Shown here in pieces: positions 12,393 through 42,444 of a stretch of 46,017 nucleotides of DNA; position 1 is the stretch's first letter, and the number at the start of each line of letters is the position of its first letter. Under the pieces are notes generated by a model. The model worked only from the letters and a program-made list of their open reading frames with translations, ran no database searches and was not told the DNA's origin. The DNA comes from Deltaproteobacteria bacterium (lineage in GTDB: Bacteria; Desulfobacterota; Desulfuromonadia; Desulfuromonadales; BM103), in the NCBI GenBank assembly GCA_024636155.1, contig JAGXHM010000056.1:1-46017 (forward strand), in the 5' to 3' direction. The translations under genes and the position numbers were made by a program.

Positions 12393-12463
12393 TAGCGAAC
12401 GGCTGCCAATCGAATAACGCAAGGCACCACTTATTCTTCCAGCCAACAGGAACTGAGGCAAGA

Positions 12464-13273: not shown

Positions 13274-13438
13274 ATCACCAAAACACCAAAAGAATCGAGG
13301 ACTAAGATCAAAATCTTCTTGCACAGAGCAGAGGGAGTCGGGAACAATAAGTAAGACTTCACAATTATAACCTTAATGATTTTTGCACTTTTTTTCTTTA
13401 TGTTCTTTGTGACTTGGTGGCTTGGTGGCCAAAAAGGA
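13274..13438. repeat. Long imperfect palindrome, copy C (divergent)
   Basis: This lies in the gap between the activase and its partner gene. It starts TCACCAAAACACCAAAAGAA, and its far end (TTCTTTGTGACTTGGTGGC) is close to the reverse complement of that. It resembles the elements at 6424 and 22033 in layout and in its CTTTGTG-type motifs but is only loosely similar. It may form a long hairpin in the mRNA. Confidence 0.5.
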
Positions 13439-13472
13439 TTTTAGCTTTTTAAGAGTTTTTGGGGAGAGATTC

Positions 13473-14720
13473 ATGGCACAAGAGAAGCAGCCGCAAAGAA
13501 AGAAGATTGAGGCAACCGGACAGATGATGAAAATCATGTCCGACTACTTCTACGACCTGAATGACGCGGCAAAGGCGCCAGACCGCAAGGTTGCCTGGTG
13601 CACCAGTGTTGGACCAGCGGAACTGCTCAGAGCGATGGGTTTTGCCGTACACTTTCCGGAAAACCACGCCGCCATGCTCGGCGCGACGCGCATGGCCACC
13701 GAACTGATTCCCGAGGCCACAACCATCGGCTATTCACCCGATATCTGCTCGTACTTGACCGCTGACATCGGCGCCTACCTGAAAGGGGTATCGCCCCTGG
13801 CCAAGGCCTACCCTGGCATTGAAGCCCCGCCTCGCCCCGACATACTGGTCTACAACACCAACCAGTGTCGCGACGTTCAGGACTGGTTCTCCTGGTACGC
13901 AAAAGAGCTGGATGTGCCCTGCATCGGCATCACTTCGCCGAAAAACTTTACCAATGTCACCGACATCCTGATCGACGACGTCACCAGGCAGATCGAAGCG
14001 CTGATCCCCACCCTGGAAAAAATCTCCGGACAGCCGCTGGAGTTGCAACGGCTGCGCGAAACCGTGGCACTCTCCCGCGAATGTACCGAACTCTGGCGTC
14101 AGGTCCTCGAGACCGCAGCGGCCTCCCCTGCCCCACTGACCTTTTTCGATGGCACAATCCACATGGGCCCGGCAGTGGTGCTGCGTGGCACCCGGCAGGC
14201 GGTCGACTATTATCAGCAACTACTCACTGAACTCACTCAGAGGATGACTGACAAGGTTGGTGCGGTTGATAGCGAAAAGCATCGTATCTACTGGGAAGGA
14301 ATGCCGGTCTGGGGTCGCCTGCGCCAACATTCCGAACTTTTTGCCGAGCTGCAAGCCAGCGTGCTGGTTTCAACCTACTGTAGTAGCTGGATTTTCCCCG
14401 ACTTCGACGCCAAAGACCCGATCCGCAGCATGGCCAAAGCTTATCTTGGACTCTTTATCGTCCGCTCCGATTCTTACAAAGAAGAGTACATCAAGGAGAT
14501 GCTGAGGAAATTCCACATTGACGGCATCATCTATCACGACGCGAAGACCTGCCCCTGCAATTCCAACAGCCGCTACGGCATGCCCCAACGGTTGGAAAAA
14601 GAGACCGGCATCCCGAGCCAGGTGATTTCCGGTGACCTCAATGACCTGCGCTGTGTTTCCGACGAACAGACCCGGACCAACGTCGAAGCCTTTATCGAGC
14701 AACTCGAGGAGAGAAGATAA
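13473..14720 (+). CDS. 2-hydroxyacyl-CoA dehydratase / double-cubane reductase-like subunit
   Basis: A 415-residue member of the HgdB/BcrC/FldB superfamily. Candidate iron-sulfur ligands are C43 (AWCTS), C92 (DICSY), C132 (NQCRD), C303 (TYCSSW) and C360/C362 (TCPC). The start is the ATG at 13473 after GGGGAGAG; an earlier GTG frame lies in the repeat. True 2-hydroxyacyl-CoA dehydratases have two such subunits and class I benzoyl-CoA reductase has two plus two activase subunits, but only one is present here. With a single activase this resembles the two-component double-cubane-cluster systems (E. coli YjiM/YjiL type). The substrate is unknown; it may dehydrate a 2-hydroxyacyl-CoA or reduce a small molecule. 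Confidence 0.82.
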   Translation: MAQEKQPQRKKIEATGQMMKIMSDYFYDLNDAAKAPDRKVAWCTSVGPAELLRAMGFAVHFPENHAAMLGATRMATELIPEATTIGYSPDICSYLTADIGAYLKGVSPLAKAYPGIEAPPRPDILVYNTNQCRDVQDWFSWYAKELDVPCIGITSPKNFTNVTDILIDDVTRQIEALIPTLEKISGQPLELQRLRETVALSRECTELWRQVLETAAASPAPLTFFDGTIHMGPAVVLRGTRQAVDYYQQLLTELTQRMTDKVGAVDSEKHRIYWEGMPVWGRLRQHSELFAELQASVLVSTYCSSWIFPDFDAKDPIRSMAKAYLGLFIVRSDSYKEEYIKEMLRKFHIDGIIYHDAKTCPCNSNSRYGMPQRLEKETGIPSQVISGDLNDLRCVSDEQTRTNVEAFIEQLEERR

Positions 14721-14721
14721 G

Positions 14722-16821: not shown

Positions 16822-16835
16822 CAAAGGTGAAAACG

Positions 16836-18200
16836 ATGCTTTTAGGATCAAACAGAGCAAATATCCACTGGCAGAAGACTTGTCAGTCACGCATCACAAC
16901 CCCGGACGAGGCTATCAAGACAATCAAGTCTGGTGATCGGGTCTTTTTGACCGGCAACGCTTCTGTGCCACTACCATTGCTTGATGCCCTGGTCAAACGA
17001 GCACCAGAACTGCAGAATGTTGAAGTCTGTCATCCGTTGACCATATGTCCCGCTGACTATGTCGCCCCGGAGATGGAAGGTCATCTACGCATCAACTCCA
17101 TGTTTATCAGCCCCAACGTGCGTAACGCTGTTAATCAGGGTCGAGCTGACTTTACTCCAGTGATGCTTTCTGAGTTCCCATTGCTCTTTAAAAACGGCCA
17201 TCTCCCCCTGGATGTTGCCTTGATCCATGTCTCACCTCCGGATGAAAACGGCTTCTGTTCCATGGGTGCAGAATCCGGGCTCACAATCTCGGCGGCGGAG
17301 GTCGCCAAGATTGTCATTGCTCAGGTCAACGAACAGATGCCACGCACTCTTGGCGATACTGCCATGCATATCGACAAGATGCACTACATCATACCGTGCG
17401 ACACACCCTTGTTTGAGATGCCGATGGGAGATGATGCGGATCAGAATGTGGTCGAAAAGATCGCTGCTCATATCGCCGGTTTGATCCCCGACGGAGCAAC
17501 CATGCAGTTGGGCATCGGGGCGCTTCCCAACGCCGTCCTGAAATTTCTCTTTGAGAAAAAAGACCTCGGCATCCATTCCGAGTTGATCTCGGACGGAATC
17601 ATTGACCTGGTCGAAGCTGGCGTTGTGAACGGTTCTTGCAAAACCCTTCATCCCGGCAAAATCACCTGCGGCTTTCTGCTCGGCACCAAACGTCTCTATG
17701 ACTGGGTCAGCAACAACCCACTGGTTGAAATGCACCGTACCGAATATGTTAACGACCCCTTTGTGGTAGCGCAGAACGATCGCATGGTCGCGATCAACTC
17801 AGCAATTGAAGTCGATTTCACAGGACAGGTCTGCGCCGACAGTATTGGCACGAAGATGCATTCGGCGGTTGGCGGCCAGGTAGACTTCATTTACGGCTCT
17901 TCCCGTTCCAAAGGCGGCGTACCAATTATTGCTCTGCCAAGCATTTCAACACTGCGCGACGGCTCTGTCGTCAGCAAGATTGTGCCGACGTTGAAACTCG
18001 GTGCGGGAGTCGTCACCAGCCGAAATCATGTCCACTACGTGGTCACCGAATTCGGTGTTGCCGCACTTTACGGCAAGACAGTCCGCCAGCGGACCCAGGC
18101 ACTGATTAATGTTGCCCACCCGCAGTTCCGTGCAGAACTCACCGAAAAAGCGAAAGAGCTGAAGTACCTGCAAGGAACAGGCAAAGACGCAATTAAATAG
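16836..18200 (+). CDS. Acetyl-CoA hydrolase / CoA-transferase family protein
   Basis: A 454-residue protein of the acetyl-CoA hydrolase/4-hydroxybutyrate CoA-transferase family. The catalytic glutamate is probably E249 in GIHSELISDG; GIGALPNAVL and an SKGG glycine turn are also typical. It moves CoA between acetyl- or butyryl-CoA and a carboxylic acid. The ATG at 16836 has an AAGGTG site; a GTG at 16827 is the alternative. It sits 14 bases after the synthetase gene. In this cluster it could form the CoA ester of a 2-hydroxy acid for the dehydratase-like protein, or activate the imported acid. Confidence 0.9.
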   Translation: MLLGSNRANIHWQKTCQSRITTPDEAIKTIKSGDRVFLTGNASVPLPLLDALVKRAPELQNVEVCHPLTICPADYVAPEMEGHLRINSMFISPNVRNAVNQGRADFTPVMLSEFPLLFKNGHLPLDVALIHVSPPDENGFCSMGAESGLTISAAEVAKIVIAQVNEQMPRTLGDTAMHIDKMHYIIPCDTPLFEMPMGDDADQNVVEKIAAHIAGLIPDGATMQLGIGALPNAVLKFLFEKKDLGIHSELISDGIIDLVEAGVVNGSCKTLHPGKITCGFLLGTKRLYDWVSNNPLVEMHRTEYVNDPFVVAQNDRMVAINSAIEVDFTGQVCADSIGTKMHSAVGGQVDFIYGSSRSKGGVPIIALPSISTLRDGSVVSKIVPTLKLGAGVVTSRNHVHYVVTEFGVAALYGKTVRQRTQALINVAHPQFRAELTEKAKELKYLQGTGKDAIK

Positions 18201-18259
18201 CGCTAACCTATCGAACGTTTTTCAATACTGACGTCAATTTATGCTGAGAGGTGGAATTT

Positions 18260-19603
18260 ATGGTCTGGAATAAAGAAGAGACATGTAGACGTAGCGAGAT
18301 GCATGCCATTCAACTCGGTCGACTGCAAAAAACGGTCAGTTACGTCTATGAAAAAAATCCACACTACCGGAAGAAGCTCGACGAACTAAAAATTCAACCA
18401 AACGACATCAAGTCTTTAGATGACATCCGCAGACTCCCTTTTACCACCAAACAGGACATCCGCGACAATTATCCTTTCAAACTCTTCACCGCACCGCAGA
18501 AGGAGATAGTCGAGTACCATGCGACCTCCGGGACAACCGGCAAACCCGTAGTGGTTGGCTATACCCGGCAGGATTTGGAAAGCTGGAAAGAGGTCATGGC
18601 CCGAGCCTTTACAGCTGCCGGCATCAACGATAAAGACGTTGTGCAGAACATCTACGGTTATGGCCTTTTTACCGGTGGCCTGGGTGCCCATTATGGTGCG
18701 ATCCATGTCGGTGCGGCTGTCATCCCGATCTCCGGCGGTAACACCCAGCGCCAACTGATGCTGATGAAAGACTTCGGCAGCACCGCTCTCACTTCCACAC
18801 CTTCGTTCCTGATGCATCTGTATGAAGCGGGCAAGGAGCAGGGGATCGACTTCCACAAACTCAAGCTCCGCGTCGGCGTCCTTGGCGCCGAGCCCTGGAG
18901 CGAGGCGATGCGCCACCAGATCCAGGACAAGTTCGGCATCAAGGCCTGTGACATCTACGGGCTCTCCGAAATCATTGGACCTGGTGTTTCCTTCGAATGT
19001 CTGGAGTCGCAACATGGCCTGCACATCAATGAAGACTACTTTTATCCGGAGATTATTGATCCGGTAACCTGCGAGGTCCTCCCTGCAGGCGAGCTTGGCG
19101 AACTGGTCTTTACCACGATTGCCAACCAGGGGCAGCCTTTGTTACGTTTCCGCACCCGCGACATCACCCGCCTCACCTACAGCACCTGTATCTGTGGCCG
19201 GAACCTGGTAAAAATGCAACGAGTCTCCGGGCGCAGCGATGACATGTTGATTATTCGCGGAGTGAACGTTTTTCCTTCGCAGATAGAAGAGATTATTCTC
19301 AAGCGCGAGGGGGTTTCCCCGCACTACATGATCATCGTCGAGCGCAAAGGCGCGATGGACTCCCTGCGCGTCAAGGTTGAGGTCACTGATAATTTTATGG
19401 TAAAAGCCTCTGCTGACATCCTCAAGGGTGCTGAATTCGATATTCTCGAAGATGTCGCAACGGTACATAGCAAAAAACGCAATCTACAGCAGGACATCAA
19501 GGACGTTATCGGCATCAGTGTTAAGGTTGATTTGGTACCGCCCGGCACTATCGCGCGCAGCGAAGGCAAGGCGAAACGGTTGGAAGATCGCCGGCCCAAA
19601 TAA
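18260..19603 (+). CDS. paaK: Phenylacetate-CoA ligase family protein
   Basis: A 447-residue adenylate-forming ligase of the PaaK type, shorter than usual acyl-CoA synthetases. It has the phosphate-binding loop HATSGTTGKP at about 87-96, YGLSEIIGPG, FRTRDIT and GRSDDMLIIRGVNVFPSQIEE, all in the usual PaaK order. It converts phenylacetate, or a close aryl acid, + ATP + CoA to the CoA ester. The ATG at 18260 has an AGGTGG site; a GTG at 18251 is the alternative. Genes of this type very often sit beside iorAB and ACT-domain genes, as here, suggesting salvage of aryl acetates formed from aromatic amino acids. Confidence 0.9.
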   Translation: MVWNKEETCRRSEMHAIQLGRLQKTVSYVYEKNPHYRKKLDELKIQPNDIKSLDDIRRLPFTTKQDIRDNYPFKLFTAPQKEIVEYHATSGTTGKPVVVGYTRQDLESWKEVMARAFTAAGINDKDVVQNIYGYGLFTGGLGAHYGAIHVGAAVIPISGGNTQRQLMLMKDFGSTALTSTPSFLMHLYEAGKEQGIDFHKLKLRVGVLGAEPWSEAMRHQIQDKFGIKACDIYGLSEIIGPGVSFECLESQHGLHINEDYFYPEIIDPVTCEVLPAGELGELVFTTIANQGQPLLRFRTRDITRLTYSTCICGRNLVKMQRVSGRSDDMLIIRGVNVFPSQIEEIILKREGVSPHYMIIVERKGAMDSLRVKVEVTDNFMVKASADILKGAEFDILEDVATVHSKKRNLQQDIKDVIGISVKVDLVPPGTIARSEGKAKRLEDRRPK

Positions 19604-19672: not shown

Positions 19673-21439
19673 ATGAAAAAGATAATTTCCGGCAATGAAG
19701 CCATCGCCTTGGGTTTCGGCGATTCTGGTGGCGTCTTCGCCTCCGGTTACCCTGGCACTCCCAGTACCGAAACCCTCGAAGAAGTCGCCCGACTGGGCGA
19801 AGTCTACTGCGAGTGGGCACCGAATGAAAAAGTGGCTCTTGAGTCAGCAATTGGCGGATCTATCGCTGGTGGGCGATCCCTCTCAACCATGAAACATGTC
19901 GGGGTTAATGTCGCTGCTGATGCTTTACTGACACTGACCTACACCGGTGTCAACGCCGGCTTGATTCTTATGGTCTCTGACGACCCTGGCATGCACTCCT
20001 CACAAAATGAACAGGACAGTCGTAACTATGCCAAGTTTGCCAAGGTACCGATGCTTGATCCATCCGATTCTCAAGAGGCCTACGACTTCGTCAAGGTCGG
20101 CTTCGAAATTTCCGAGCAATTTGATACGCCACTGATGCTGCGCACCACGACACGAATCTCACACGCCAAAGGTGTGGTTATACAACAAGATAAAATTGCT
20201 CCGCAGATTGGTGAGTGGGTCAAGGATGTGCCTAAATACGTCATGCTGCCTAACTTTGGCAAACTCAAACATATTGAAGTCGAAGCACGGCTGCTCAAAC
20301 TTCAGGAATATGCTGAGACCACGCCTTTAAACCGAATTGAGATGAGAGAGACCGAATTAGGTATCATCACCTCTGGTGTTGCATACCAGCATGTACGCGA
20401 AGCATGCCCTGATGCCTCAGTACTGAAGCTGGGAATGATTCATCCCCTCCCGGCGCGGAAGATCCGCGAGTTTGCCAAGAGTGTCAAGCGTCTGGTGATC
20501 GTTGAAGAGATGGATGCTATCTTCGAAGAACAGATCCGTGCCATGGGCATCGACGTTGAAATCGGCAAGAACAAACTGCCGCTCTGCGGTGAGATTAATG
20601 CCGACATCATCCGCACTGCCCTCGAACTAACCGTGACCGGGGCCACCCCCCCTGTGGAAGGGCTGCCACAACGCCCGCCGGTGTTCTGCCCCAGCTGTGC
20701 CCACCGAGGCCTTTTTACCATCCTCAGCAAACTCAAGGTCTTTGTCTCCGGTGATATTGGTTGCTATACACTGGGAGCGCTACCGCCAATGAGCGCCATG
20801 CATTCGGTAATCGACATGGGTGCCAGTATCAGCGCCGCCCACGGTATGGCTAAGGTCAATGCGATTGCTGGGCGTGATGAAAAGCCGGTCGCTGTCATCG
20901 GCGATTCGACCTTTTTCCATTCAGGAATGACTGGTCTGATGAGCATGGCCTACAATGGTGGCAATGCCCTGGTTATTATTATGGATAATCGCACCACCGG
21001 CATGACCGGTGGTCAGGAAAACCCCGGTAGCGGTGTGACCCTGCAAGGCATTCCGGCTCGTCAGGTCGAAATGGTCCCACTGGTTAAAGCACTGGGCATC
21101 GATAATGTCGCAGAGCTCAACGCCTATGATCTCAAAGAGACAGAAGCGGCGATCAAAAAAGGATTGGAGACTCCAGGACCCTACGTACTGATCGACAAGA
21201 ACCCCTGCATTCTGCGCTACAAGATCCGCAAACCCGCCATGAACGTTGACGAGGAGAAGTGCACCGGGTGCCGGGCTTGCCTGAAAGTAACCTGTATGGC
21301 CCTGGGTCTGATCACCGTTGGCGAAAAACAGAAGGTGCGAGTCGACCCCAACGTCTGTAACGGCTGCGGTATCTGTATGCAGATGTGTAAATTCGATGCG
21401 ATGCACACGCTTGAGGGAGAAAACAATGCAAATCTTTAA
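19673..21439 (+). CDS. iorA: Indolepyruvate ferredoxin oxidoreductase, alpha subunit
   Basis: A 588-residue thiamine-pyrophosphate enzyme. The N-terminal domain holds SGYPGTPSTE; the central part holds CPSCAHRG, GDIGCYTLGALPP and the TPP/magnesium motif GDSTFFHSGMTGL. The C-terminal end has two ferredoxin-type clusters, CTGCRACLKVTC and CNGCGICMQMC. With IorB it oxidatively decarboxylates aryl pyruvates to aryl-acetyl-CoA and reduces ferredoxin. It overlaps iorB by 14 bases. It lies just downstream of the phenylacetate-CoA ligase gene, so phenylpyruvate-like substrates are likely. Confidence 0.95.
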   Translation: MKKIISGNEAIALGFGDSGGVFASGYPGTPSTETLEEVARLGEVYCEWAPNEKVALESAIGGSIAGGRSLSTMKHVGVNVAADALLTLTYTGVNAGLILMVSDDPGMHSSQNEQDSRNYAKFAKVPMLDPSDSQEAYDFVKVGFEISEQFDTPLMLRTTTRISHAKGVVIQQDKIAPQIGEWVKDVPKYVMLPNFGKLKHIEVEARLLKLQEYAETTPLNRIEMRETELGIITSGVAYQHVREACPDASVLKLGMIHPLPARKIREFAKSVKRLVIVEEMDAIFEEQIRAMGIDVEIGKNKLPLCGEINADIIRTALELTVTGATPPVEGLPQRPPVFCPSCAHRGLFTILSKLKVFVSGDIGCYTLGALPPMSAMHSVIDMGASISAAHGMAKVNAIAGRDEKPVAVIGDSTFFHSGMTGLMSMAYNGGNALVIIMDNRTTGMTGGQENPGSGVTLQGIPARQVEMVPLVKALGIDNVAELNAYDLKETEAAIKKGLETPGPYVLIDKNPCILRYKIRKPAMNVDEEKCTGCRACLKVTCMALGLITVGEKQKVRVDPNVCNGCGICMQMCKFDAMHTLEGENNANL

Positions 21440-21998
21440 TATTGTTATTGCCGGTGTCGGTGGTCAGGGCGTTTTGATGGCTTCCAAGGTTCTCGCCGAA
21501 AGTGCCCTGGTCAGTGGCATGGACGTTAAGCAGAACGAAGTTCACGGCATGGCCCAGCGTGGCGGCAGCGTCATCAGCTTTGTTCGTATCGGTGACCAGG
21601 TCAACTCGCCGGTGGTTATGCCCGGAAGTGCCGATCTGCTCATCTCCTTCGAACCTCTGGAGGCCTTGCGCTATATTCACTATCTCAAGCCTGGTGGTCG
21701 TCTGATTTACAGCAAGGTTTCGATTAACCCCAGCACTGTGGCATCCGGACTGGCGATCTATCCCGATGATGTTGAGCAACAGATTGCTGCCATCTGTGCC
21801 GAAGCACAAGGCATTGAAGCCCTCGCCATAGCCCGTGAAGCTGGCAACGGCAAGGCGGTTAATATGGTGATGGTCGGCTCAGTCATGAAACATCTCCCTC
21901 TCAAGGAAGAGGTTATCACTGAAGTTGTGAAAAAGATCTCGCAAGGCAAAGGGGTCGAGGTAAATTTGAAGGCTCTGGCTGGTGGTGCAGCAGCGTAA
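21426..21998 (+). CDS. iorB: Indolepyruvate ferredoxin oxidoreductase, beta subunit
   Basis: A 190-residue gamma-type subunit with AGVGGQGVLMASKVLAE near the N-terminus and the usual NEVHGMAQRGGSV and GSADLLISFEPLEALRY. I chose the ATG at 21426 with GAGGGAG upstream; the longer frame from 21318 lies inside iorA. It completes the two-subunit enzyme with IorA. Confidence 0.94.
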   Translation: MQIFNIVIAGVGGQGVLMASKVLAESALVSGMDVKQNEVHGMAQRGGSVISFVRIGDQVNSPVVMPGSADLLISFEPLEALRYIHYLKPGGRLIYSKVSINPSTVASGLAIYPDDVEQQIAAICAEAQGIEALAIAREAGNGKAVNMVMVGSVMKHLPLKEEVITEVVKKISQGKGVEVNLKALAGGAAA

Positions 21999-22215: not shown

Positions 22216-22665
22216 ATGAAACAGACCTTAAAACAGATCTCAATCTTCCTGGAAAATGCGCCAGGCCGGTTATACGAAGCAACCCAGGCCCTTGGCGAGG
22301 CAGGTCTCAATCTGAGGTCGCTCTCGATTAGCGATGTTTCCGGATTCGGGGTATTGAGAATCCTGATCTCCGATGTTGCCAAGGCACGCCGGGTCATCAT
22401 GGAAAAACAGCTCCCGGCCCGAGTGGACGAGGTGGTAGCAGCGGAAATCAGCGACACCCCGGGAAGCCTGGCAAAGACCCTCAAGGTGCTGATGCAAAAC
22501 AAAGTCAACGTTGACTACATGTACGCCCTGGCGGGGACCTCTTCGGGGAAGGCCGTCATGGTTTTCAGCTTCAGCGACAATGACCTGGCAATCAAATTAC
22601 TGCAGGACAACAACATTAAAATCCTTGATGCCGAATCCTTCGGGATCCTCGAGAGTCCAGTCTAG
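22216..22665 (+). CDS. Tandem ACT-domain protein, copy 1
   Basis: A 149-residue protein made of two ACT domains: residues 1 to about 68 (QISIFLENAPGRLYEATQAL) and about 72 to 145 (EISDTPGSLAKTLKVL). ACT domains bind amino acids. Free-standing double-ACT proteins of this kind often accompany phenylacetate-CoA ligase and iorAB genes and are thought to sense an amino acid or the pathway acid. The same gene type follows again at 23695, with a similar partner gene. No catalytic residues are seen. Confidence 0.9.
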   Translation: MKQTLKQISIFLENAPGRLYEATQALGEAGLNLRSLSISDVSGFGVLRILISDVAKARRVIMEKQLPARVDEVVAAEISDTPGSLAKTLKVLMQNKVNVDYMYALAGTSSGKAVMVFSFSDNDLAIKLLQDNNIKILDAESFGILESPV

Positions 22666-22708
22666 TCACGGCCCGAAGTCCGGGCTGACGATTCAAGGAG
22701 AAGATCAG

Positions 22709-23650
22709 ATGGGTGAAACGAACTACCGTCCGAAAAAATTTGCTGTCATCGGTGCTGGCCCCGTCGGAGGAATAGTCGCAGCCTTTCTTGCCAGGGGTGG
22801 GTACGAGGTCACGCTTTGCGATATTCTCCCGGAATTGCTTGCTCCGGCCCTCGAACCAGGGATCCTGCTCGAAGGTGCAGATAACTTTCAAGCCAGAGTG
22901 ACTCGCACGACAACCCGGCTCGATGAGCTTCTCAATGATCCACCGGATGTCATTTTCATTACCGTGAAAGCAACGGTGCTACCACTGATTGCTTCAGCCC
23001 TTGAGGACTTTGCCGCCGAAGGACGCTACGTCGTCAGCTGGCAGAACGGTATTGATACCGAGCTGGAACTGGCCAAGCATCTTGGCAACAAGACAGTGAT
23101 GCGCGGGGTCGTTAATTTCGGCTGTGTTCCTCTCTCTCCTGCACACATCCGTCTGGCCTTTCATAACCGTCCCCATTACCTGCAGGAGCTCGACCCGGCA
23201 TCCAAGGCCGCGGCTGCCGGTATCTGTCAGGTTTTGACTGAGTGTGGTCTCGACACCCAGCACAGTGACCAGATTACTAATATGGTCTGGCGCAAGACGG
23301 TCCTCAATGCCTGCATGAATCCAATATGCGCCGTAACCGGCATGACCATGGTTGAGATTATCAATGACCCAATCACTTTCAACCTGGTTGATGCGCTAAT
23401 CAAGGAAGGGATTGCGGTTGCCCGTACCAATGAGTTTTCTCTCGGCTCAAATTATTACCCTTACGCTATCAACTACATAAAAAATGCCGGTAATCACAAA
23501 CCTTCGATGCTTCAGGATATCGAGGCAAAGAGGCGCACCGAGGTTGATTACATCAACGGCAAAATTATCAAATATGGAGCGCAAGCCGGTATCCCTACCC
23601 CCTACAACAACATGATCCGGGGGCTGGTCAAGGCCCTTGAGCCGAAGTGA
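22709..23650 (+). CDS. Ketopantoate-reductase-like 2-hydroxyacid dehydrogenase, copy 1
   Basis: A 313-residue protein of the PanE/ApbA family. The NAD(P)-binding loop is GAGPVG at 15-20. The catalytic lysine-asparagine pair is K196 and N200 (WRKTVLNACMNP), and SMLQDIEAKRRTEVDYING carries the conserved late Ser and Glu. All key PanE residues are present. The family includes ketopantoate reductase and also D-2-hydroxyacid dehydrogenases, such as D-mandelate dehydrogenase and 2-hydroxyisocaproate dehydrogenase. In a 2-oxoacid catabolic cluster the latter role fits better than pantothenate synthesis. The ATG at 22709 has AAGGAG upstream. Confidence 0.88.
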   Translation: MGETNYRPKKFAVIGAGPVGGIVAAFLARGGYEVTLCDILPELLAPALEPGILLEGADNFQARVTRTTTRLDELLNDPPDVIFITVKATVLPLIASALEDFAAEGRYVVSWQNGIDTELELAKHLGNKTVMRGVVNFGCVPLSPAHIRLAFHNRPHYLQELDPASKAAAAGICQVLTECGLDTQHSDQITNMVWRKTVLNACMNPICAVTGMTMVEIINDPITFNLVDALIKEGIAVARTNEFSLGSNYYPYAINYIKNAGNHKPSMLQDIEAKRRTEVDYINGKIIKYGAQAGIPTPYNNMIRGLVKALEPK

Positions 23651-23694
23651 CCCGAACGGCTCTCCGTGAATCATGCAGAGCAAGGAACGTTGTC

Positions 23695-24141
23695 ATGAAA
23701 TTAAAACAGTTATCGATTCCCCTGGAAAATTCCCCGGGTCGATTGCACGATGTCACCAAGGCGTTGGGCGAGGCAGGTATCAATCTCAGGGCTCACTGTA
23801 TCTGCGATTCGACTCACGACTTCGGCGTGCTGAGGATTCTGGTCTCTGACCTGTCCAGAGCGCGAGGCGTCATTATGGAAAGGTATATTCCGGCCCGTGT
23901 TGATGATGTCATCGCCGTTGAGATTGAAGACACTCCTGGCAGCCTGGCGCAGCTCCTCAGCCTCTTTCTGGGAACCAAAGTCAATGTCGAGTACATGTAT
24001 GCAGTCGCTGGCGCAAACCTGGAAAAAGCGATCATGGTTTTTCATTTTAGCGCTATTGATCAGGCCATTACGATTCTCGAGAAAGCTGGAGTAAAGCTGC
24101 TTGATGCAAAATCCTTTGGCATTCTGGTAGGAGAGGAATAG
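23695..24141 (+). CDS. Tandem ACT-domain protein, copy 2
   Basis: A 148-residue double-ACT protein clearly homologous to the one at 22216: the N-termini share the LKQxSIxLEN(A/S)PGRL pattern, and both end in a SFGIL motif. The start is the ATG at 23695 after AAGGA. It lies between the two ketopantoate-reductase-like genes, so the unit ACT+reductase is present twice. It probably binds a related but different amino acid or acid. Confidence 0.9.
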   Translation: MKLKQLSIPLENSPGRLHDVTKALGEAGINLRAHCICDSTHDFGVLRILVSDLSRARGVIMERYIPARVDDVIAVEIEDTPGSLAQLLSLFLGTKVNVEYMYAVAGANLEKAIMVFHFSAIDQAITILEKAGVKLLDAKSFGILVGEE

Positions 24142-24249
24142 CACCCGGTTGCCAGGCTAAAGACTTTTCAATAGATAAAGGGTTTCTTTGCCAGACCATC
24201 CGATTGTTCATGGTCTGTTCGTTGCACCAGGTGACTCAGGGAGTCTGAT

Positions 24250-25191
24250 ATGCAGGAAAAAACCGATTACAGACCACAGAAATTTGCCGTGGTCGGCGCC
24301 GGACCGGTCGGTTGTATCGTTGCCGCGTTTCTCTCCCGGGGAGGCTATGAGGTCACACTCTGCGATGTCCAGACGATCCTTTTGGAAGAAGCGATGGATC
24401 CGGGGATCCTCCTTTCGGGCACTGATAGCTTCCAGGCCAGAGTGGCGAAAGTGACAACCCGGGTCGATCAACTGGCCTATGATCCGCCAGATGTCGTCAT
24501 CGTCACGGTCAAGGCGACAGCCCTGCCGATCATTTCCTCCGCCCTGGAGGGCATTGTTGGCGAGGGCTGCTACGTGGTCAGTTGGCAAAACGGCATTGAC
24601 ACCGAACTGGTTCTTGCCGAACGGCTCGGGAAAAAGCACGTGATGCGGGCGGTGGTCAACTACGGCTGCATTCTGGATGGACCAGCAAAGGTCGAGTTGG
24701 TCTTCCACCATCGTCCCCACTACCTGCAAGAGCTGGACCCAGACTCAAAAGAAGCTGCACTTGGGATCTGTCATGCTCTAACCGAATGTGGCCTCGACAC
24801 GCACCACACCAACCAGATCCGCAACATGGTCTGGAGCAAGACAGTCAATAACTCCTGTATGAACGCTGTCTGCGCTGTTACCGGCAAGACCATGTTCGAA
24901 GTCATCAACGACCCGATTGTTTCTAGTCTGGTTGACTCTTTATTAAAGGAAGGGGTCAAGGTAGCCCGAGCCAATGAAATGATGCTGGGGCCGGATTACT
25001 ACCTCGATTGTCTCGACTACATCAAGGATGCCGGGCATCATAAGCCATCCATGCTGCAGGATATAGAAGCGAAGCGCCAAACTGAAATCGATTATATCAA
25101 TGGCAAGATCATTGAATATGGCGACCGGGCTGGTGTGCCTACACCTTACAATTCGACCTTGCGAAGCTTGGTCAAGGCACTTGAGACATGA
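24250..25191 (+). CDS. Ketopantoate-reductase-like 2-hydroxyacid dehydrogenase, copy 2
   Basis: A 313-residue homologue of the protein at 22709, of the same length and with shared segments such as YVVSWQNGIDTEL and PHYLQELDP. The nucleotide loop is GAGPVG, the catalytic pair K197/N201 (WSKTVNNSCMN), and the late SMLQDIEAKRQTEIDYING segment is intact. Both copies therefore look catalytically competent. Differences cluster in the middle of the chain, for example NFGCVPLSP versus NYGCILDGP, which may alter substrate choice. The start ATG has GGGAG upstream. Confidence 0.88.
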   Translation: MQEKTDYRPQKFAVVGAGPVGCIVAAFLSRGGYEVTLCDVQTILLEEAMDPGILLSGTDSFQARVAKVTTRVDQLAYDPPDVVIVTVKATALPIISSALEGIVGEGCYVVSWQNGIDTELVLAERLGKKHVMRAVVNYGCILDGPAKVELVFHHRPHYLQELDPDSKEAALGICHALTECGLDTHHTNQIRNMVWSKTVNNSCMNAVCAVTGKTMFEVINDPIVSSLVDSLLKEGVKVARANEMMLGPDYYLDCLDYIKDAGHHKPSMLQDIEAKRQTEIDYINGKIIEYGDRAGVPTPYNSTLRSLVKALET

Positions 25192-25291: not shown

Positions 25292-25391
25292 GTTCAGGAT
25301 TAAAGCGATAATTGTTCGTTCTGGCCATAACTGTCACAAAGCCTTGCGCCAAATAAGTGGCCCAGGTCAACTACCCGCTAGGAGGTTCGTA

Positions 25392-26441
25392 ATGAAAAAA
25401 ATCTTTGTCGTGTTTCCTCTGCTTGCCCTGCTGATTGTCAGCATGTTGGCCAGCCCTGTGCTCGCTGCCGAAGCCAAAAAAGACCCATTGGCTAACTGGG
25501 CGACCAAGTTCGACTTTTCCAAGGCCGAGTACACCTACATTCTGTCAAACATCTCTCATCCTGTTATTCAAGGCGTTGCCAACGGCTACAACTTTCGTGA
25601 TTCGCTCTGGGAAAAATCTAACGGTCGGATCTATGTCGACTACCGCCCGCTGGCACAACTCGGCGGCGAAAAGGACGTTATCTCCAAGCTGAAACTTGGT
25701 GCGGTCCAGGGAATGCTGTCCTCTTCCGTTGCCTCGGCTAACATCGCCGACAAACTTGGCATCGTCAACCTGCCTTACGTTGTCGACACCTACGATAAGC
25801 TCGACCAGTTCCGCGGTGACCCTGCTCTCTGGGGCCCCTACAGCAACTCTGCACAATCAGCCGGCCTGATGGTTGCTGATATCGTCAATTACGGTCAGTA
25901 CGGCTGGGCCACCACGACTCCGGTGCGCAACCTGGATGATGCAAAAACCGTTAACTTCCGTATCGCTGAAGCACCAGTCAACATCGATGTGTACAATGCA
26001 TGGGGCGCTAAATTTACGGTCATGCCTTGGCCAGATGTCCCGCAGGCGCTGCAGACTGGCGTGATCAACGGTCTCGACCATACAGCGATCGTCTGCAATA
26101 TTACCAAAAAATTCACCATCGCCAAATACTTCACCGAGCTCAACTATGCGCAAGGACTCTTCGTCCACCTGGTTAACAAGAAATGGTTCAACAAACTCCC
26201 GGCTGACCTGCAAAAAGTATTCATCGAGGTCCTCGAAGAGGAGAGCGCCAAGACCCGTGCCCTGACCAGGGTGCAGCATGATGAGCAGATCGCCAAAGCC
26301 AAAGAAGCTGGCGTCGAATTCATCTCCCTGTCAGCAGCTGACAAGGCGCAATTGATCGAAGACGCCAAGCCGGTTTACGCCAGCTGGGGCGAAAAAATCG
26401 GTATGGATTACCTGAATACCGTTCGTTCAACTCTCAAATAA
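25392..26441 (+). CDS. dctP: TRAP transporter substrate-binding protein (DctP family)
   Basis: A 349-residue periplasmic binding protein. A Sec signal peptide (MKKIFVVFPLLALLIVSMLA, then cleavage near VLA-A) precedes a DctP fold with SNISHPVIQG, a LAQLGGEKDVISKLKLGAVQ segment, and the substrate-binding arginine region VNFRIAEAP followed by MPWPDVPQALQTGVINGLD. That arginine normally grips a carboxylate, so the ligand is an organic acid. The ATG at 25392 has a perfect AGGAGG. The frame reaching 25236 is not supported by a leader. It works with DctQ and DctM below. Confidence 0.93.
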   Translation: MKKIFVVFPLLALLIVSMLASPVLAAEAKKDPLANWATKFDFSKAEYTYILSNISHPVIQGVANGYNFRDSLWEKSNGRIYVDYRPLAQLGGEKDVISKLKLGAVQGMLSSSVASANIADKLGIVNLPYVVDTYDKLDQFRGDPALWGPYSNSAQSAGLMVADIVNYGQYGWATTTPVRNLDDAKTVNFRIAEAPVNIDVYNAWGAKFTVMPWPDVPQALQTGVINGLDHTAIVCNITKKFTIAKYFTELNYAQGLFVHLVNKKWFNKLPADLQKVFIEVLEEESAKTRALTRVQHDEQIAKAKEAGVEFISLSAADKAQLIEDAKPVYASWGEKIGMDYLNTVRSTLK

Positions 26442-26460
26442 TATTAATCATTTTCATCAC

Positions 26461-26483
26461 GCCGGGGAGCCTTGCTCCCCGGC
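26461..26483 (+). terminator. Strong hairpin between dctP and dctQ
   Basis: A perfect 10-bp GC-rich stem (GCCGGGGAGC/GCTCCCCGGC) with a 3-base loop lies 20 bases after the dctP stop. There is no long T run, so it is more likely a partial terminator or mRNA-stabilising structure that keeps binding-protein expression above that of the membrane subunits. Confidence 0.7.
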
Positions 26484-26506
26484 GACTTTATATTTAAAGG
26501 GCCTGC

Positions 26507-27004
26507 ATGTTGAGAAGAGTCTTTGATAAGGTCGATCGTTCCTTTACCATCATTGAGGACTGGACGTTATTGTTGTCGGTCTGTATTGCCCTGGTCGTCG
26601 CCATGGCCAATGTGCTGCTGCGCAAGTTGACGTCTGATGTCAACCTCTACTGGTCAGACGAGGTGGTACGCAAGACGATCTACATCACCACCTACATCGG
26701 TTGCATTGTGGCAGTGCGCAACCGCTCTTTGATCTGCATCGATGCCCTGCCGCAGATGGTGCCGGGTCTAAAGAAACCTCTGGCCTTCTTCTCCCATCTG
26801 GCGGTGCTGATCTTTGCCACCTGCATGATCTACCTTGGCGGAACGATGACCTACTTGATGTACCTCGACAAATATGCCAAGACGTCCAGCCTGCAGCTCC
26901 CCGAGTGGATTTTCTACGCAGTGCTGCCCCTGATGGGAGTGATGATGTTCCTGCGTACCTTGATGGTGGCGATTGACGACTGGAAGGAGGGGGCAAAGAA
27001 GTAA
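26507..27004 (+). CDS. dctQ: TRAP transporter small membrane subunit (DctQ family)
   Basis: A 165-residue protein with four predicted membrane segments (around residues 20-40, 58-75, 92-115 and 132-152). The conserved WSDEVVRKTIYITTYIGCIV region is typical of DctQ. It couples to the large subunit in the sodium-driven uptake of an acid. Confidence 0.9.
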   Translation: MLRRVFDKVDRSFTIIEDWTLLLSVCIALVVAMANVLLRKLTSDVNLYWSDEVVRKTIYITTYIGCIVAVRNRSLICIDALPQMVPGLKKPLAFFSHLAVLIFATCMIYLGGTMTYLMYLDKYAKTSSLQLPEWIFYAVLPLMGVMMFLRTLMVAIDDWKEGAKK

Positions 27005-27045
27005 GCCGGATGGATTGCCCTCCTGCCTGCCCTGCCTGAATCCTT

Positions 27046-28332
27046 ATGGATACCAATTACTTAATTATTCTACTGTTACTGCTTGGCCTGATGGCAGCGA
27101 CGGTTCCCGTTTTCATGGCCTTGTTTTTCACCGGGACCGTCGGCCTGGTCTTTATGATCGGCATCGATGCGCAGATTGTCATAGAGGTGCTGTACCGCAG
27201 CATGGACAAGTTTGCCCTGGTGGTGGTGCTCTTCTTCATCCTCTGCGGCAACATCATGACCACCGGTTCCATCGTCCATAAACTGATCAAGACAGCTAAC
27301 GTTCTGGTCGGTTTTCTGCCAGGCGGCCTGGCCATGGCTGGAGTCCTCGCCTGTGGCTTTTTCGGCGCGATCTCTGGATCAACGGTTGCCACTGTAGTCG
27401 CCATCGGCGGCTTCATGATTCCGGCACTGATTGAAAATGGCTACGATGAGAAGTTCTCTGTCGGCATCATGACCACTGCCCCCAACCTGGGGATCATCAT
27501 TCCACCTTCAATCGCGATGATCCTTTATGCCATGGTCAGCAACGACCCGATTGAAGCCCTCTTTCTGACTGGCTTCATCCCGGGGATCATGATCATGGTG
27601 GCGATGAGTCTGTACGCTTATTTCTATTGCAAAAAGAAAAGCTACAAAACTCTGGACAAACCGAGTTTCAAGGAAATTGTTGCGGTCTTAAGAGAAAGTG
27701 TTTGGGCCCTTTGCCTGCCGTTGCTGATTTTTGGCGGCATCTATTCCGGCATGTTCACCGCTAACGAAGCAGCTGTGGTTGCATGTTTCTATGCCTTCTT
27801 TGTCGAGATTTTTATCCACAAGGACATGAAGTTCAAGGATATTCAGAAAATTATTGTTTCCTCAGCGGCCACCTCGGCAACCCTTCTGGTGATCGTTGCC
27901 GGAGCTTCGGTGTTCGGTGAATATCTGACCTTCGAACAGATTCCAAACAAAATCGCAACTGCGGTCGTCAGTCAGATCCAGTCACCCTGGGTCTTTCTCA
28001 TGGCAGTCAATGTTATGCTACTGATTGTCGGCATGTTCATGGATATTATTTCTGCGACCCTGATCCTGACACCAATCTTCCTGCCACTACTGGCCTCTTT
28101 CGGTATCGACACGATGCATTTCGGCCTGCTGATGACGATCAATCTTGGCATCGGTTACTGCACGCCACCGCTGGGCGTCAGCCTCTACATCGCGGGTGCT
28201 GCGATTGACCGCAACCTGGTTTACGTCTCCAAGGCGGTGATACCTTTCGTCTTAATTCAGATTGCAGTCCTGCTGATTCTGACCTATTGGGCTGATCTTG
28301 TGCTCTACTTACCACGCCTGGTTTATGGCTGA
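27046..28332 (+). CDS. dctM: TRAP transporter large membrane subunit (DctM family)
   Basis: A 428-residue integral membrane protein with about a dozen hydrophobic segments. It shows the DctM signatures GFFGAISGSTVATVVAIGG and TAPNLGIIIPPSIAMILY, and a late NLGIGYCTPPLGVSLY. It is the translocating subunit of the tripartite transporter. It starts 41 bases after dctQ and ends where the Usp gene begins. Confidence 0.94.
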   Translation: MDTNYLIILLLLLGLMAATVPVFMALFFTGTVGLVFMIGIDAQIVIEVLYRSMDKFALVVVLFFILCGNIMTTGSIVHKLIKTANVLVGFLPGGLAMAGVLACGFFGAISGSTVATVVAIGGFMIPALIENGYDEKFSVGIMTTAPNLGIIIPPSIAMILYAMVSNDPIEALFLTGFIPGIMIMVAMSLYAYFYCKKKSYKTLDKPSFKEIVAVLRESVWALCLPLLIFGGIYSGMFTANEAAVVACFYAFFVEIFIHKDMKFKDIQKIIVSSAATSATLLVIVAGASVFGEYLTFEQIPNKIATAVVSQIQSPWVFLMAVNVMLLIVGMFMDIISATLILTPIFLPLLASFGIDTMHFGLLMTINLGIGYCTPPLGVSLYIAGAAIDRNLVYVSKAVIPFVLIQIAVLLILTYWADLVLYLPRLVYG

Positions 28333-29510: not shown

Positions 29511-31835
29511 ATGGGTATCAGACAACGGGTTAAACGGCTATTGAGCCGTATGCACCAGACGCCTCAGTACCGCACTCAAGGTGCGGTTCTCTTTGTTGAT
29601 CTTGAACAGCGCAGTACGCTGCGCGGATACCTGTCACTCGATGCGGTCCAGCACTTTCTGGCCGGCCGCGGCGGTAACATGTACCTGCTCTACAATCTGT
29701 TGCAGGAAGAGAAAGAGGCTCTCGATCCAGAAGTGCCTTTGATTTTCGGCGTCGGAGTTCTGACCGGCAGAACGCCTGGGGCCACTCGCGGCAACATCAC
29801 AAGTCGCTCACCGGAGAGCCGGGCGATCCTCGACAGTAATGCCGGTGACTACTTCCCAACCTATCTCAAACGCAATGGCTACGACCATCTGGTTCTCTAC
29901 GGCCGCAACCCGGAATGGACATTACTCAAAATCGAGCAAAAGCAAATCAGTTTTATCGATGCCACGGCTTATTGCGGTATGGACAACATTGAGTTTACTG
30001 CGGCAATTGAAGGTGATTTCATCGGTACCGAACGCAAAGACATAGCCATGGCGCGGATCAGCAGCGCTGGAGAAAACCAGGTGCTCTGCAGTGGCATCAT
30101 GGCGGGTGAGAAATCGATCTGGGCCCGTGGTGGTGGTGGTGCCAAGATGGGAGCCCTGCATCTGAAGGCGATTCTCATCCAGGGCAAGCTGCCGGAGCTT
30201 GACCTTTCGGAACCTTTCAAAGTGGGCAACCGGAACATTGGCAAAAAGATCCTCGCTGCGAGTGTCGTCCAGAATGCACTGAAAAAAGTCGGTACGCCTT
30301 TTCTCTACAAACCGAGCCGGGTGCTCGGCGCCATGGGAACCAAGAACAACCAGGAAACCACCTGGCACGACAGCCTCGATGCAGACAACTTTGATCCTTA
30401 TCGTCCGGGAATGAGCCGCTGCTACCAGTGCCCGGTCGGATGCCGGGCCAACAACGACATGCTTCCTGGCGGCAAAGGCGGCTGGGGTGCCAGCGCCCTG
30501 ACCGGCCTCAGCGGTAATGCCAGTTACGATAAAACACAAAGTGCCCTTGAGCATCACAAACAACGGAGCTACAACGGCATCAACAATGACGGCCACTTCG
30601 ACAAGTACGACAAAGGAGAAGGCCCGGAATACATTATCGTTGGCAAGTTTGGCCCCAACATCGGCATCAAAGAGCCTGAGCAAGTCCTGCGCCTTAACAA
30701 CATCCTCAACGATCTGGCCCTCGATGCTTCAAGTACCGGCAGCGCTATCGCCTGGGCCATGGAACTCTATCAGCGCGGCATCATCGACCAGAAGACGACC
30801 GGCGGACTGGAGCTGACCTGGGGAAATTATCCGGTCATCGAACAATTACTCTTCATGACCGCAAAGCGCGAGGGTTTTGGCGACACCATCGCTCTTTCCA
30901 GCCGCGCTGTTGAGCTGGGGAAATATCCACCGGAAGCACTGAGCTACTGCATGGCGTCGAAAGGGCTGTTTCAGTCTGATCCGCACGACGCCCGCATCCT
31001 CAAAGCCTTTGCCCTGGGGTTGGCGGTTGCCACCCGCGGCATGGATCATCTGCGTAATCGTGCCACTCTCGAGATCAACGCCCGCATCAACGATGATGCC
31101 ACGTTCAAGACCGACCTCTACGGGGGTGTGGTCTCCCCCGAACCAACCTCTTACGAGGGGAAAGAGTACGCGGTCCGGCGCTGCGAAAACACCTTTGCCG
31201 TTGGTGATGCGATCGGCATGTGCCGTTTTAATACCAAACTGTTCAACTCACCGACAACACCTGACCTTGAGGACTTTGCCGCCCAACTTAACGCATTGAC
31301 CCAACTGCATTTCGATGCCGATCAGCTGGATGAAATCGGCCGAGACATCACCGGATTGGAGCGAATGCTCAACTTTCGCTTCGGTCTGCGCGGCGAGGAT
31401 GACACCCTGCCCGTCCGTTGGTTCGATGAACCGATTGCAGTTGGCCCCTTCAAAGGGGAAAAGATCGACCGCGAGCAGTTCGCCGCACTTAAGCAACGCT
31501 TTTACCTGCTGACCGGGCTCAATCGCGAAGGTGTTCCCTCCCTCGACTGGCACGCCAAACTCTCGAAACGCGTCACCAACTACAGCATCAGGGTCAAGTT
31601 CCCCTGTGCTCTACCCGGAGCGCCTGAACAGTCTATTGTCGTCGATGAGCCGATGGCACACCTGGGAGAGCTTCGCCAGCACCTTCGGTGTAAACTCCCT
31701 GAAGCGGCAAGAATACTTGATGATCCGAACCTCAACATCGTCATCGACGGCAAGATGATTCTCGCTGGCGAAAACCAGACCGACATTCCTGACGGCAGCG
31801 AGGTCACCCTGATTTCCTACGTCTCTGGAGGGTAA
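29511..31835 (+). CDS. Aldehyde:ferredoxin oxidoreductase family protein with MoaD-like tail
   Basis: A 774-residue protein. Residues 20 to about 680 are an AOR-family tungsten/molybdenum enzyme: the cluster ligands are C304-x2-C307-x3-C311 (RCYQCPVGCR) plus C571 (IGMCRFN), and AGEKSIWARGGGG matches the cofactor-binding domain. Residues from about 690 form a beta-grasp MoaD/ThiS-like domain that ends exactly in VTLISYVSGG, i.e. with the terminal Gly-Gly used for thiocarboxylate formation in molybdopterin synthesis. AOR enzymes oxidise aldehydes to acids, or reduce acids, with ferredoxin. It is only distantly like BamB in this window. The substrate is unknown; an aryl aldehyde would fit. Confidence 0.88.
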   Translation: MGIRQRVKRLLSRMHQTPQYRTQGAVLFVDLEQRSTLRGYLSLDAVQHFLAGRGGNMYLLYNLLQEEKEALDPEVPLIFGVGVLTGRTPGATRGNITSRSPESRAILDSNAGDYFPTYLKRNGYDHLVLYGRNPEWTLLKIEQKQISFIDATAYCGMDNIEFTAAIEGDFIGTERKDIAMARISSAGENQVLCSGIMAGEKSIWARGGGGAKMGALHLKAILIQGKLPELDLSEPFKVGNRNIGKKILAASVVQNALKKVGTPFLYKPSRVLGAMGTKNNQETTWHDSLDADNFDPYRPGMSRCYQCPVGCRANNDMLPGGKGGWGASALTGLSGNASYDKTQSALEHHKQRSYNGINNDGHFDKYDKGEGPEYIIVGKFGPNIGIKEPEQVLRLNNILNDLALDASSTGSAIAWAMELYQRGIIDQKTTGGLELTWGNYPVIEQLLFMTAKREGFGDTIALSSRAVELGKYPPEALSYCMASKGLFQSDPHDARILKAFALGLAVATRGMDHLRNRATLEINARINDDATFKTDLYGGVVSPEPTSYEGKEYAVRRCENTFAVGDAIGMCRFNTKLFNSPTTPDLEDFAAQLNALTQLHFDADQLDEIGRDITGLERMLNFRFGLRGEDDTLPVRWFDEPIAVGPFKGEKIDREQFAALKQRFYLLTGLNREGVPSLDWHAKLSKRVTNYSIRVKFPCALPGAPEQSIVVDEPMAHLGELRQHLRCKLPEAARILDDPNLNIVIDGKMILAGENQTDIPDGSEVTLISYVSGG

Positions 31836-36163: not shown

Positions 36164-36189
36164 CCCGCCCTCTTGGTGAGGAAATAACT

Positions 36190-37578: not shown

Positions 37579-37592
37579 TCGGAGTTATCACA

Positions 37593-39272: not shown

Positions 39273-39317
39273 AAAACTTCGGCGACCATCCTTGCCGACT
39301 CTTCTTAGGATAAAGAC

Positions 39318-42385: not shown

Positions 42386-42444
42386 TTTGTTGGGTAGACA
42401 GCTATCTACCTTTGATTCCCCAAAGAACAAAAGCCAAATCACAA

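Follow-up and report, generated by a model that had tools for sequence, protein, structure and literature searches.

A duplicated ACT-PanE array in Desulfuromonadales: a probable, anciently duplicated arylpyruvate-reductase step on an anaerobic route to benzoyl-CoA

Why would a bacterium keep, side by side, two copies of a gene pair encoding a small double-ACT protein and an enzyme annotated as 2-dehydropantoate 2-reductase (ketopantoate reductase, PanE)? Such an array, ACT1-PanE1-ACT2-PanE2, occupies positions 22216-25191 of a 46,017-nucleotide contig (JAGXHM010000056.1) from a metagenome-assembled genome (MAG) of the Desulfuromonadales; the whole contig stretch is called the window here. All four genes lie on the plus strand, with intergenic gaps of 43, 44 and 108 bp:

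22216..22665, plus strand: ACT1, 149 aa, a free-standing double-ACT protein (PF19571 ACT_8, 72.9 bits), putative sensor of an amino-acid or aryl ligand
22709..23650, plus strand: PanE1, 313 aa from the ATG at 22709, with ApbA and ApbA_C domains, proposed arylpyruvate reductase / D-aryllactate dehydrogenase
23695..24141, plus strand: ACT2, 148 aa from the ATG at 23695, the second double-ACT copy
24250..25191, plus strand: PanE2, 313 aa, the second PanE copy, which has Asn199 and belongs to the PanE2 clade that spans the class

We consider it probable that this array is an ancient, retained duplication of the arylpyruvate-reductase step in an anaerobic pathway that leads from aromatic acids to benzoyl-CoA. 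An initial annotation, made from the window's letters alone, had proposed paired 2-hydroxyacid/2-oxoacid dehydrogenases, each with its own amino-acid sensor.

Are the two pairs truly copies of each other? They agree in order and length, as the initial annotation had described, and the identities are 68% for PanE1 and PanE2, 60% for ACT1 and ACT2, and 66% at the DNA level. Pfam finds ApbA and ApbA_C in both PanE proteins and the ACT_8 "ACT domain pair" over its cut-off in both ACT proteins (E = 2.9e-20 and 1.2e-19), which bears out their description as proteins of two ACT repeats. The open-reading-frame finder had begun PanE1 (379 aa) and ACT2 (164 aa) farther upstream; alignments favor the ATG starts listed above. 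No Rfam RNA, riboswitches included, matched within the window. The four-gene array is also present in 14 of 98 relatives (the window's genome excluded), both copies being there each time. The two-copy array also recurs across the class, and this recurrence is far beyond chance.

In a maximum-likelihood tree of 105 proteins, every PanE of the ACT-PanE module falls into one clade (100/100), and inside it the second copies form a clade of their own (90/99) that spans families of the class. Codons of the residues shared by both copies agree in only 31%. Since the PanE2 clade spans the class and silent sites are scrambled, the duplication is old; a recent duplication or an assembly artefact is ruled out by the same observations and by the 66% DNA identity. 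Some Geobacter-type loci show the reversed order, ACT2-PanE2-ACT1-PanE1. Outside the class the module PanE is mostly single-copy, and in the order of Desulfococcus multivorans each of 78 carriers (213 genomes) has one copy. The simplest reading of these sequences is one ancient tandem duplication that was retained.

Do the enzymes make pantoate? The Lys/Asn pair and late Ser and Glu singled out by the initial annotation are retained throughout: none of the 119 module enzymes departs from K196/N200, S266 and E278, or from N204 and N113. All 119 likewise have Asp38 where beta2 ends, and none has Arg39. The Arg39 of the ketopantoate reductase type is found in 14 of 16 housekeeping copies of the order, and the E. 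coli enzyme likewise has Arg one position later. Asp38 is instead the state of the NADH-dependent D-mandelate dehydrogenase 3wfi, which is also the best Foldseek match of the PanE1 AlphaFold model (pLDDT 93.5); D-mandelate dehydrogenase and an E. faecalis homologue rank at or near the top in sequence and fold searches. From these residues and matches, PanE1 and PanE2 are predicted to be NAD(H)-dependent D-2-hydroxyacid dehydrogenases of the PanE family, of the D-mandelate dehydrogenase type. The 2-hydroxyacid/2-oxoacid chemistry first suggested for them fits this nearest solved enzyme.

Could they nevertheless be genuine ketopantoate reductases whose duplicated genes came to lie among catabolic ones? 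Their catalytic residues are intact and they score over the TIGR00745 cut-off. However, the NAD-type Asp38 stands in place of Arg, the module enzymes form a separate clade, and 14 of 18 carrier genomes own another PanE that scores higher (225-258 bits against 190-209 for the module). Nor does their distribution follow panB, which is present in all 21 genomes tested; it tracks the HGD-D gene discussed below. The initial annotation would have given up its reading if the genome had no other panE and grew only when these enzymes supplied pantoate. No other PanE was seen in G000 (the window's MAG), G002, G010 and G146, and for the window's MAG and G002 this could favor ketopantoate reduction, but the MAG is 72% complete, which limits what its missing second PanE can mean. 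Two genomes of the window's genus are instructive: in G002 (100% complete) no PanE other than the module copies was seen, and G009 (98% complete) has panB and no PanE-family match whatever. Because G009 has panB without any PanE, the absence of a second PanE is no evidence for a role in pantoate synthesis; pantoate in G009 and G002 is perhaps made via IlvC. We regard a ketopantoate reductase role as very unlikely, so the initial argument against pantothenate synthesis holds, and a large Desulfobacterota clade annotated as 2-dehydropantoate 2-reductase is very probably misnamed.

If not with panB, with what does the module travel? In a sample of 244 genomes of the class, the PanE module is found in 34 and an orthologue of HGD-D, a 2-hydroxyacyl-CoA dehydratase subunit, in 34; 32 have both (Fisher test, 3e-35). 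BamQ of the benzoyl-CoA pathway is present in 31 of the 34 PanE carriers (8e-28), and 9 genomes have BamQ without PanE. These p-values overstate the strength of the association because the genomes are related to each other. Within the window's genus, the near-complete G001, G005 and G009 are without the PanE module, HGD-D and BamQ, and G002 and G006 have all three.

The window itself places these genes around the array. The upstream side holds an IclR regulator, the BcrA-type activase and HGD-D, then an NDP-forming CoA ligase, a CoA-transferase, a PaaK-like ligase and the IorAB pair; downstream follow TRAP genes, Usp, a transglutaminase-like protein, an enzyme of the aldehyde:ferredoxin oxidoreductase (AOR) family and an isobutyryl-CoA mutase. 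The initial annotation had already noted the iorAB and TRAP genes on the two sides. The neighbors are as follows:

764..2767, minus strand: BamB, class II benzoyl-CoA reductase catalytic subunit (1270 bits to 4z3w)
4453..5268, minus strand: BamR, cyclohexa-1,5-dienecarbonyl-CoA hydratase (TIGR03189, 419.9 against a cut-off of 292.5)
5220..6365, minus strand: BamA, 6-oxocyclohex-1-ene-1-carbonyl-CoA hydrolase (TIGR03200, 700.8 against 464)
6593..7663, minus strand: BamQ, 6-hydroxycyclohex-1-ene-1-carbonyl-CoA dehydrogenase (TIGR03201, 591.6 against 338.65)
7751..9016, minus strand: thiolase (TIGR01930, over cut-off)
9026..11041, minus strand: 3-hydroxyacyl-CoA dehydrogenase / enoyl-CoA hydratase fusion of beta-oxidation (HADH-ECH), 38.6% identical to the D. 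multivorans homologue
12389..13273, plus strand: BcrA/BadF-type ATPase (2-hydroxyacyl-CoA dehydratase activase; above the TIGR00241 cut-off with 196.8 bits, Cys conserved)
13422..14720, plus strand: HGD-D, single 2-hydroxyacyl-CoA dehydratase subunit, HadB-like (PF06050, 231 bits; 3o3m HadB, E = 3.5e-49)
14701..16821, plus strand: NDP-forming acyl-CoA synthetase (ACD type, by domain and family profiles), possible aryllactate/arylacetate CoA ligase or ATP-forming enzyme
16827..18200, plus strand: CoA-transferase of the acetyl-CoA hydrolase/transferase family (PF13336/PF02550)
18251..19603, plus strand: PaaK-like phenylacetate-CoA ligase (TIGR02155, 568 bits, below the 646 cut-off)
19673..21439, plus strand: IorA, arylpyruvate (indolepyruvate):ferredoxin oxidoreductase alpha subunit (TIGR03336, 650.2 against a cut-off of 650.9)
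21429..21998, plus strand: IorB, beta subunit (PF01558; NF005322, 222 bits against a cut-off of 237)
25386..28332, plus strand: TRAP uptake system DctP-DctQ-DctM, with homologous TRAP genes in the D. multivorans cluster
29511..31835, plus strand: AOR-family enzyme with a MoaD/ThiS-like-looking C-terminal extension, fused to PanE in Holophagaceae

Is this neighborhood kept elsewhere? Among 47 named loci, of which many are only short contigs, HGD-D or the activase is found in 21, IorA or PaaK in 27, and at least one of these stands near PanE in 35. The co-occurrence with iorAB and benzoyl-CoA genes anticipated by the initial annotation is borne out. HADH-ECH genes are near PanE in 16 of the loci and thiolase genes in 10, and three distant groups have bam genes next to the module. 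Only one locus has an AcdA4-like acyl-CoA dehydrogenase, at 25% identity; such near-absence is expected if the route proposed below enters beta-oxidation at the enoyl-CoA. PadI, of phenylglyoxylate dehydrogenase in the Pad pathway of denitrifiers, exceeded its curated cut-off in none of 17 module genomes, though the 14 control genomes likewise gave no positive.

The HGD-D/activase partner was absent from the initial reading of the locus. HGD-D retains the three cluster Cys, the Ser and the Glu that align with HadB in 16 of 16 sequences, and a BcrA/HgdC-type activase gene is adjacent to it both in the window and in D. multivorans. Ring reduction would not need HGD-D, since BamB itself is in the window. 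An assignment of HGD-D and its activase as a class I benzoyl-CoA reductase was considered and is unlikely: BamB is of class II, and HadB is a better match than MbdO/BzdO. Because mandelate lacks a beta-hydrogen, the presence of a 2-hydroxyacyl-CoA dehydratase argues for aryllactate, which can be dehydrated, over mandelate as the hydroxy acid concerned.

A cluster of known response to substrate bears on this question. In the genome that we take to be that of D. multivorans DSM 2059 (G406), one strand at C1 2.784-2.797 Mb reads IorA-IorB-ACT-PanE-BcrA-HGD-D-two AMP ligases (FadD)-TRAP. D. multivorans grows on phenyllactate, and two adjacent clusters at 2.77 Mb were reported to yield proteins formed specifically on phenylacetate and phenylpyruvate; the report names CheY C24760, kinases C24770/80 and FadD4 C24830, and assigns Dmul_C24850-70 to phenyllactate-phenylpyruvate conversion (PMC5109826). 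Counting genes by tens is consistent with these named anchors and would make C24840 HGD-D and C24850-70 BcrA, PanE and ACT. This published single-copy cluster and its tie to phenyllactate escaped the initial annotation, which knew of no described system of this form. D. multivorans is stated to have neither PadB nor PadEFGHI, and in 2016 its route from phenylpyruvate or phenylacetate to benzoyl-CoA was called unclear (PMC5109826); the literature searched held no later resolution. It also held no paper joining a ketopantoate reductase with ACT/indolepyruvate genes or with a 2-hydroxyacyl-CoA dehydratase.

In D. multivorans, hydratase C24740 and thiolase C24750, both from the phenylpyruvate cluster, match their counterparts in the cinnamate operon at 99.7% and 73% identity. 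Since they copy the cinnamate-operon enzymes, phenylpyruvate would be degraded via cinnamoyl-CoA, and the simplest conclusion from these sequences is that HGD-D with its activase would be the missing entry to that intermediate. The 680-aa hydroxyacyl-CoA dehydrogenase/hydratase is encoded twice, at G406:C1:2770112-2772151 (L160) and 2776549-2778588 (L161), these being the 99.7% identical pair.

How might the steps run? What the sequences show is the order and homology of the genes, the catalytic and cofactor residues of their products, their co-occurrence, and the kinship to a cluster whose proteins are formed on phenylpyruvate and phenylacetate; the substrates, the direction, the CoA-activation step and the roles of the ACT and AOR proteins are what we infer. 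PanE would interconvert arylpyruvate and D-aryllactate with NADH, acting on phenylpyruvate and probably also on 4-hydroxyphenylpyruvate. D-Aryllactate would be turned into aryllactyl-CoA by a CoA ligase or CoA-transferase encoded in the cluster. HGD-D, started by the ATP-driven BcrA-type activase, would remove water to give cinnamoyl-CoA, which the hydratase, 3-hydroxyacyl-CoA dehydrogenase and thiolase would cleave to benzoyl-CoA and acetyl-CoA; ring opening would fall to the neighboring Bam enzymes. IorAB and PaaK would tie arylpyruvate to arylacetyl-CoA and arylacetate by oxidation. More speculatively, arylacetate could itself be a substrate, with IorAB working as a reductive carboxylase to arylpyruvate. 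The cluster's response to phenylacetate would then be explained, because PaaK and reverse IorAB could supply phenylpyruvate. A precedent for reverse IorAB was sought in a Bacteroides paper, which had none beyond that for succinyl-CoA (KGOR). The cluster as a complete substitute for the Pad pathway, from phenylacetate through PaaK, reverse IorAB with CO2, PanE and HGD-D to benzoyl-CoA and acetyl-CoA, in which the doubled ACT-PanE would provide a regulated, NADH-dependent step for two aryl substrates, is a possibility that we put forward tentatively and with some doubt.

Several observations weigh against the proposed route. The 2-hydroxyacyl-CoA dehydratases known to us are two-subunit enzymes, and one HGD-D gene was seen per locus inspected, a second subunit elsewhere in the genomes not having been searched for; because only one subunit was seen, HGD-D may be a homodimer. 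No FldA-type (type III) CoA-transferase was identified in the cluster, where the CoA-transferase is of the PF02550/PF13336 type. In one lineage (L096, L100, L101 and L104), ACT-PanE lies by housekeeping genes, one of them TrmFO-like, and none of the pathway genes is close by. The closest characterized PanE homologues are only 23-28% identical, and the tree, because its branches are long, does not place the module clade among the reference enzymes; the D-mandelate dehydrogenase pair does not join it there. In D. multivorans, C24680 and C24740 could hardly be told apart by proteomics because they are 99.7% identical. The same hydratase and thiolase were read there as making phenylglyoxylate, and the text of the report does not state detection of PanE, HGD-D or the activase (PMC5109826).

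Might PanE act on other hydroxy acids altogether? It could oxidize D-mandelate or a similar acid to phenylglyoxylate, which a 2-oxoacid:ferredoxin oxidoreductase would turn into benzoyl-CoA, HGD-D being an unrelated neighbor. The best PDB matches are, after all, D-mandelate dehydrogenases, and a POR/VOR/PGDH-type oxidoreductase is encoded at 39318-42324. Yet the POR-type genes score far under the phenylglyoxylate dehydrogenase cut-offs and adjoin the isobutyryl-CoA mutase, a setting that points to valine. Mandelyl-CoA, moreover, lacks a beta-hydrogen, which would leave the tightly co-conserved HGD-D and activase without a role, and the beta-oxidation genes would go unexplained. We judge mandelate oxidation distinctly improbable. 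That mutase, and HadB as the closest solved structure to HGD-D, would suit a role of PanE and HGD-D in leucine or valine breakdown, with aliphatic 2-hydroxy acids such as 2-hydroxyisocaproate and 2-hydroxyisovalerate as substrates, as would the apparent branched-chain amino-acid ABC transporter genes, judged by gene order, size and leading residues only, that adjoin several Geobacter-type loci. Aliphatic substrates are unlikely, however, given the benzoyl-CoA pathway in 31 of 34 carriers, the bam genes beside the module in three distant groups, the response of the D. multivorans cluster to phenylpyruvate and phenylacetate, and the aryl-specific families of IorAB and PaaK.

Alternatively, the aromatic acids might go no farther than arylacetate: PanE would store and retrieve arylpyruvate as aryllactate, IorAB, AOR and PaaK would carry out oxidation, and HGD-D would lead to arylpropionate as a Stickland-like electron sink. 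Clostridium sporogenes runs the aryllactate branch reductively, and IorAB, PaaK, AOR, ACD and the CoA-transferase are all in the cluster. Against this, carriers also own the benzoyl-CoA pathway, the beta-oxidation genes by the module lead onward from cinnamoyl-CoA, and a reductive sink would be of less use to organisms that respire. There is little chance, in our estimation, that the pathway ends there, and we continue to favor the route to benzoyl-CoA.

Why two copies? Position 199, beside the catalytic Asn200, is Met or Leu in PanE1 and the single-copy enzymes and Asn in 37 of 37 PanE2 proteins, a hint from sequence at a more polar pocket in PanE2. At 85% conservation the copies are split only by I231/L and Q292/R; at 60% the residue list is longer, with M/L199 to N the most suggestive change. 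No pocket residue but that at position 199 is cleanly exchanged, so the initial idea of two related substrates gains no firm footing. Both copies may be kept for two aryl substrates, for heterodimers or for separate regulation. The ACT1 model (pLDDT 87.1) best matches the fold of the double-ACT protein 2f06 (TM 0.85; sequence E = 3.6e-21). Canonical ACT_8 proteins of the order adjoin PaaK, not PanE, in 30 of 30 loci inspected, and an aryl or aromatic-amino-acid ligand is likely for the ACT proteins by this association; with such a ligand, an aromatic amino acid or an aryl acid, they would probably gate the neighboring enzyme.

The AOR-family gene may be a further part of the ACT-PanE module. 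In Holophagaceae (L082:10001-12922), PanE and AOR form one in-frame protein of 973 residues by Pfam, with a MoaD/ThiS-like-looking C-terminal extension ending Ala-Gly-Ala; a second fusion, in a Holophagaceae MAG (L083:3136-4445), is ended by the contig edge. AOR directly follows PanE in several Geobacter-type loci and in L085. Because it is fused to PanE or directly follows it, AOR probably belongs to the module. The window's own AOR protein ends Ser-Gly-Gly in its C-terminal stretch, like a fused MoaD/ThiS sulfur carrier. As a guess, its substrate would be arylacetaldehyde leaking from IorAB.

Farther downstream, 32915-42327 encodes a fused isobutyryl-CoA mutase, a BluB-like protein, an HTH-cupin regulator, an AMP ligase and a three-subunit 2-oxoacid:ferredoxin oxidoreductase, and looks like a branched-chain (valine) unit adjoining the aromatic one. 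An integron integrase at 43254-44348 (TIGR02249, 482 bits) stands beside a 244-bp direct repeat (42437-42680 / 42992-43235; 89% identical, spacing 555 bp); this is possibly a small chromosomal integron.

If the route holds, the gap in sulfate reducers without PadB and PadEFGHI gets a specific answer with named enzymes, and a radical 2-hydroxyacyl-CoA dehydratase would be coupled to aromatic respiration, not to amino-acid fermentation. If the full Pad alternative were also true, strict anaerobes would degrade phenylacetate by carboxylation and beta-oxidation, not alpha-oxidation. The question is directly testable in cultured hosts of the gene set: D. multivorans, Geotalea toluenoxydans and Geobacter argillaceus.

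How does the locus compare with known systems? E. coli PanE (1ks9/2ofp) shares the fold and catalytic residues but has the NADP-type Arg, about 22% identity and another genomic context. The D-mandelate dehydrogenases of Enterococcus faecium and Lactobacillus brevis (3wfi, 5x20, 8wl1) share the PanE fold and the NADH-type Asp after beta2, and 3wfi also the His at position 263 and the catalytic Lys/Asn/Ser/Glu; they are 23-28% identical, form a separate clade and are not known to have an ACT partner or HGD-D. The double-ACT protein BT0572 (2f06) resembles ACT1 in sequence and fold and is itself of no assigned function. HadBC, 2-hydroxyisocaproyl-CoA dehydratase (3o3m), shares the HGD-D family, the three cluster Cys, the Ser and the Glu, but has two subunits where module loci show a single HGD-D. 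The clostridial Fld pathway, whose phenyllactyl-CoA dehydratase is cited in PMC13416013, runs from arylpyruvate through aryllactate and aryllactyl-CoA to cinnamoyl-CoA with an ATP-driven activase, and its dehydrogenase is not of the PanE family. The route proposed here follows the same arylpyruvate-to-cinnamoyl-CoA logic and has the activase; the Fld pathway differs in its two-subunit dehydratase, its dedicated CoA-transferase and its end in phenylpropionate instead of benzoyl-CoA.

The closest likeness is the D. multivorans cluster (G406:C1:2.776-2.807 Mb; PMC5109826), which shares IorAB, ACT, PanE, the BcrA-type activase, HGD-D, a CoA ligase, TRAP genes, hydratase and thiolase, and which lies near bam genes. 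It differs in having one ACT-PanE pair and no match to ACD, PaaK or AOR in the 60 kb read, and the text of the report does not propose an aryllactyl-CoA dehydratase step. The single-copy cluster and its phenyllactate link are thus already known from D. multivorans; new are the class-wide duplicated form, its conservation together with HGD-D and the enzymes of the Bam pathway, the reassignment of a large supposed ketopantoate reductase clade to the NAD type, the PanE-AOR fusion and the explicit route to benzoyl-CoA.

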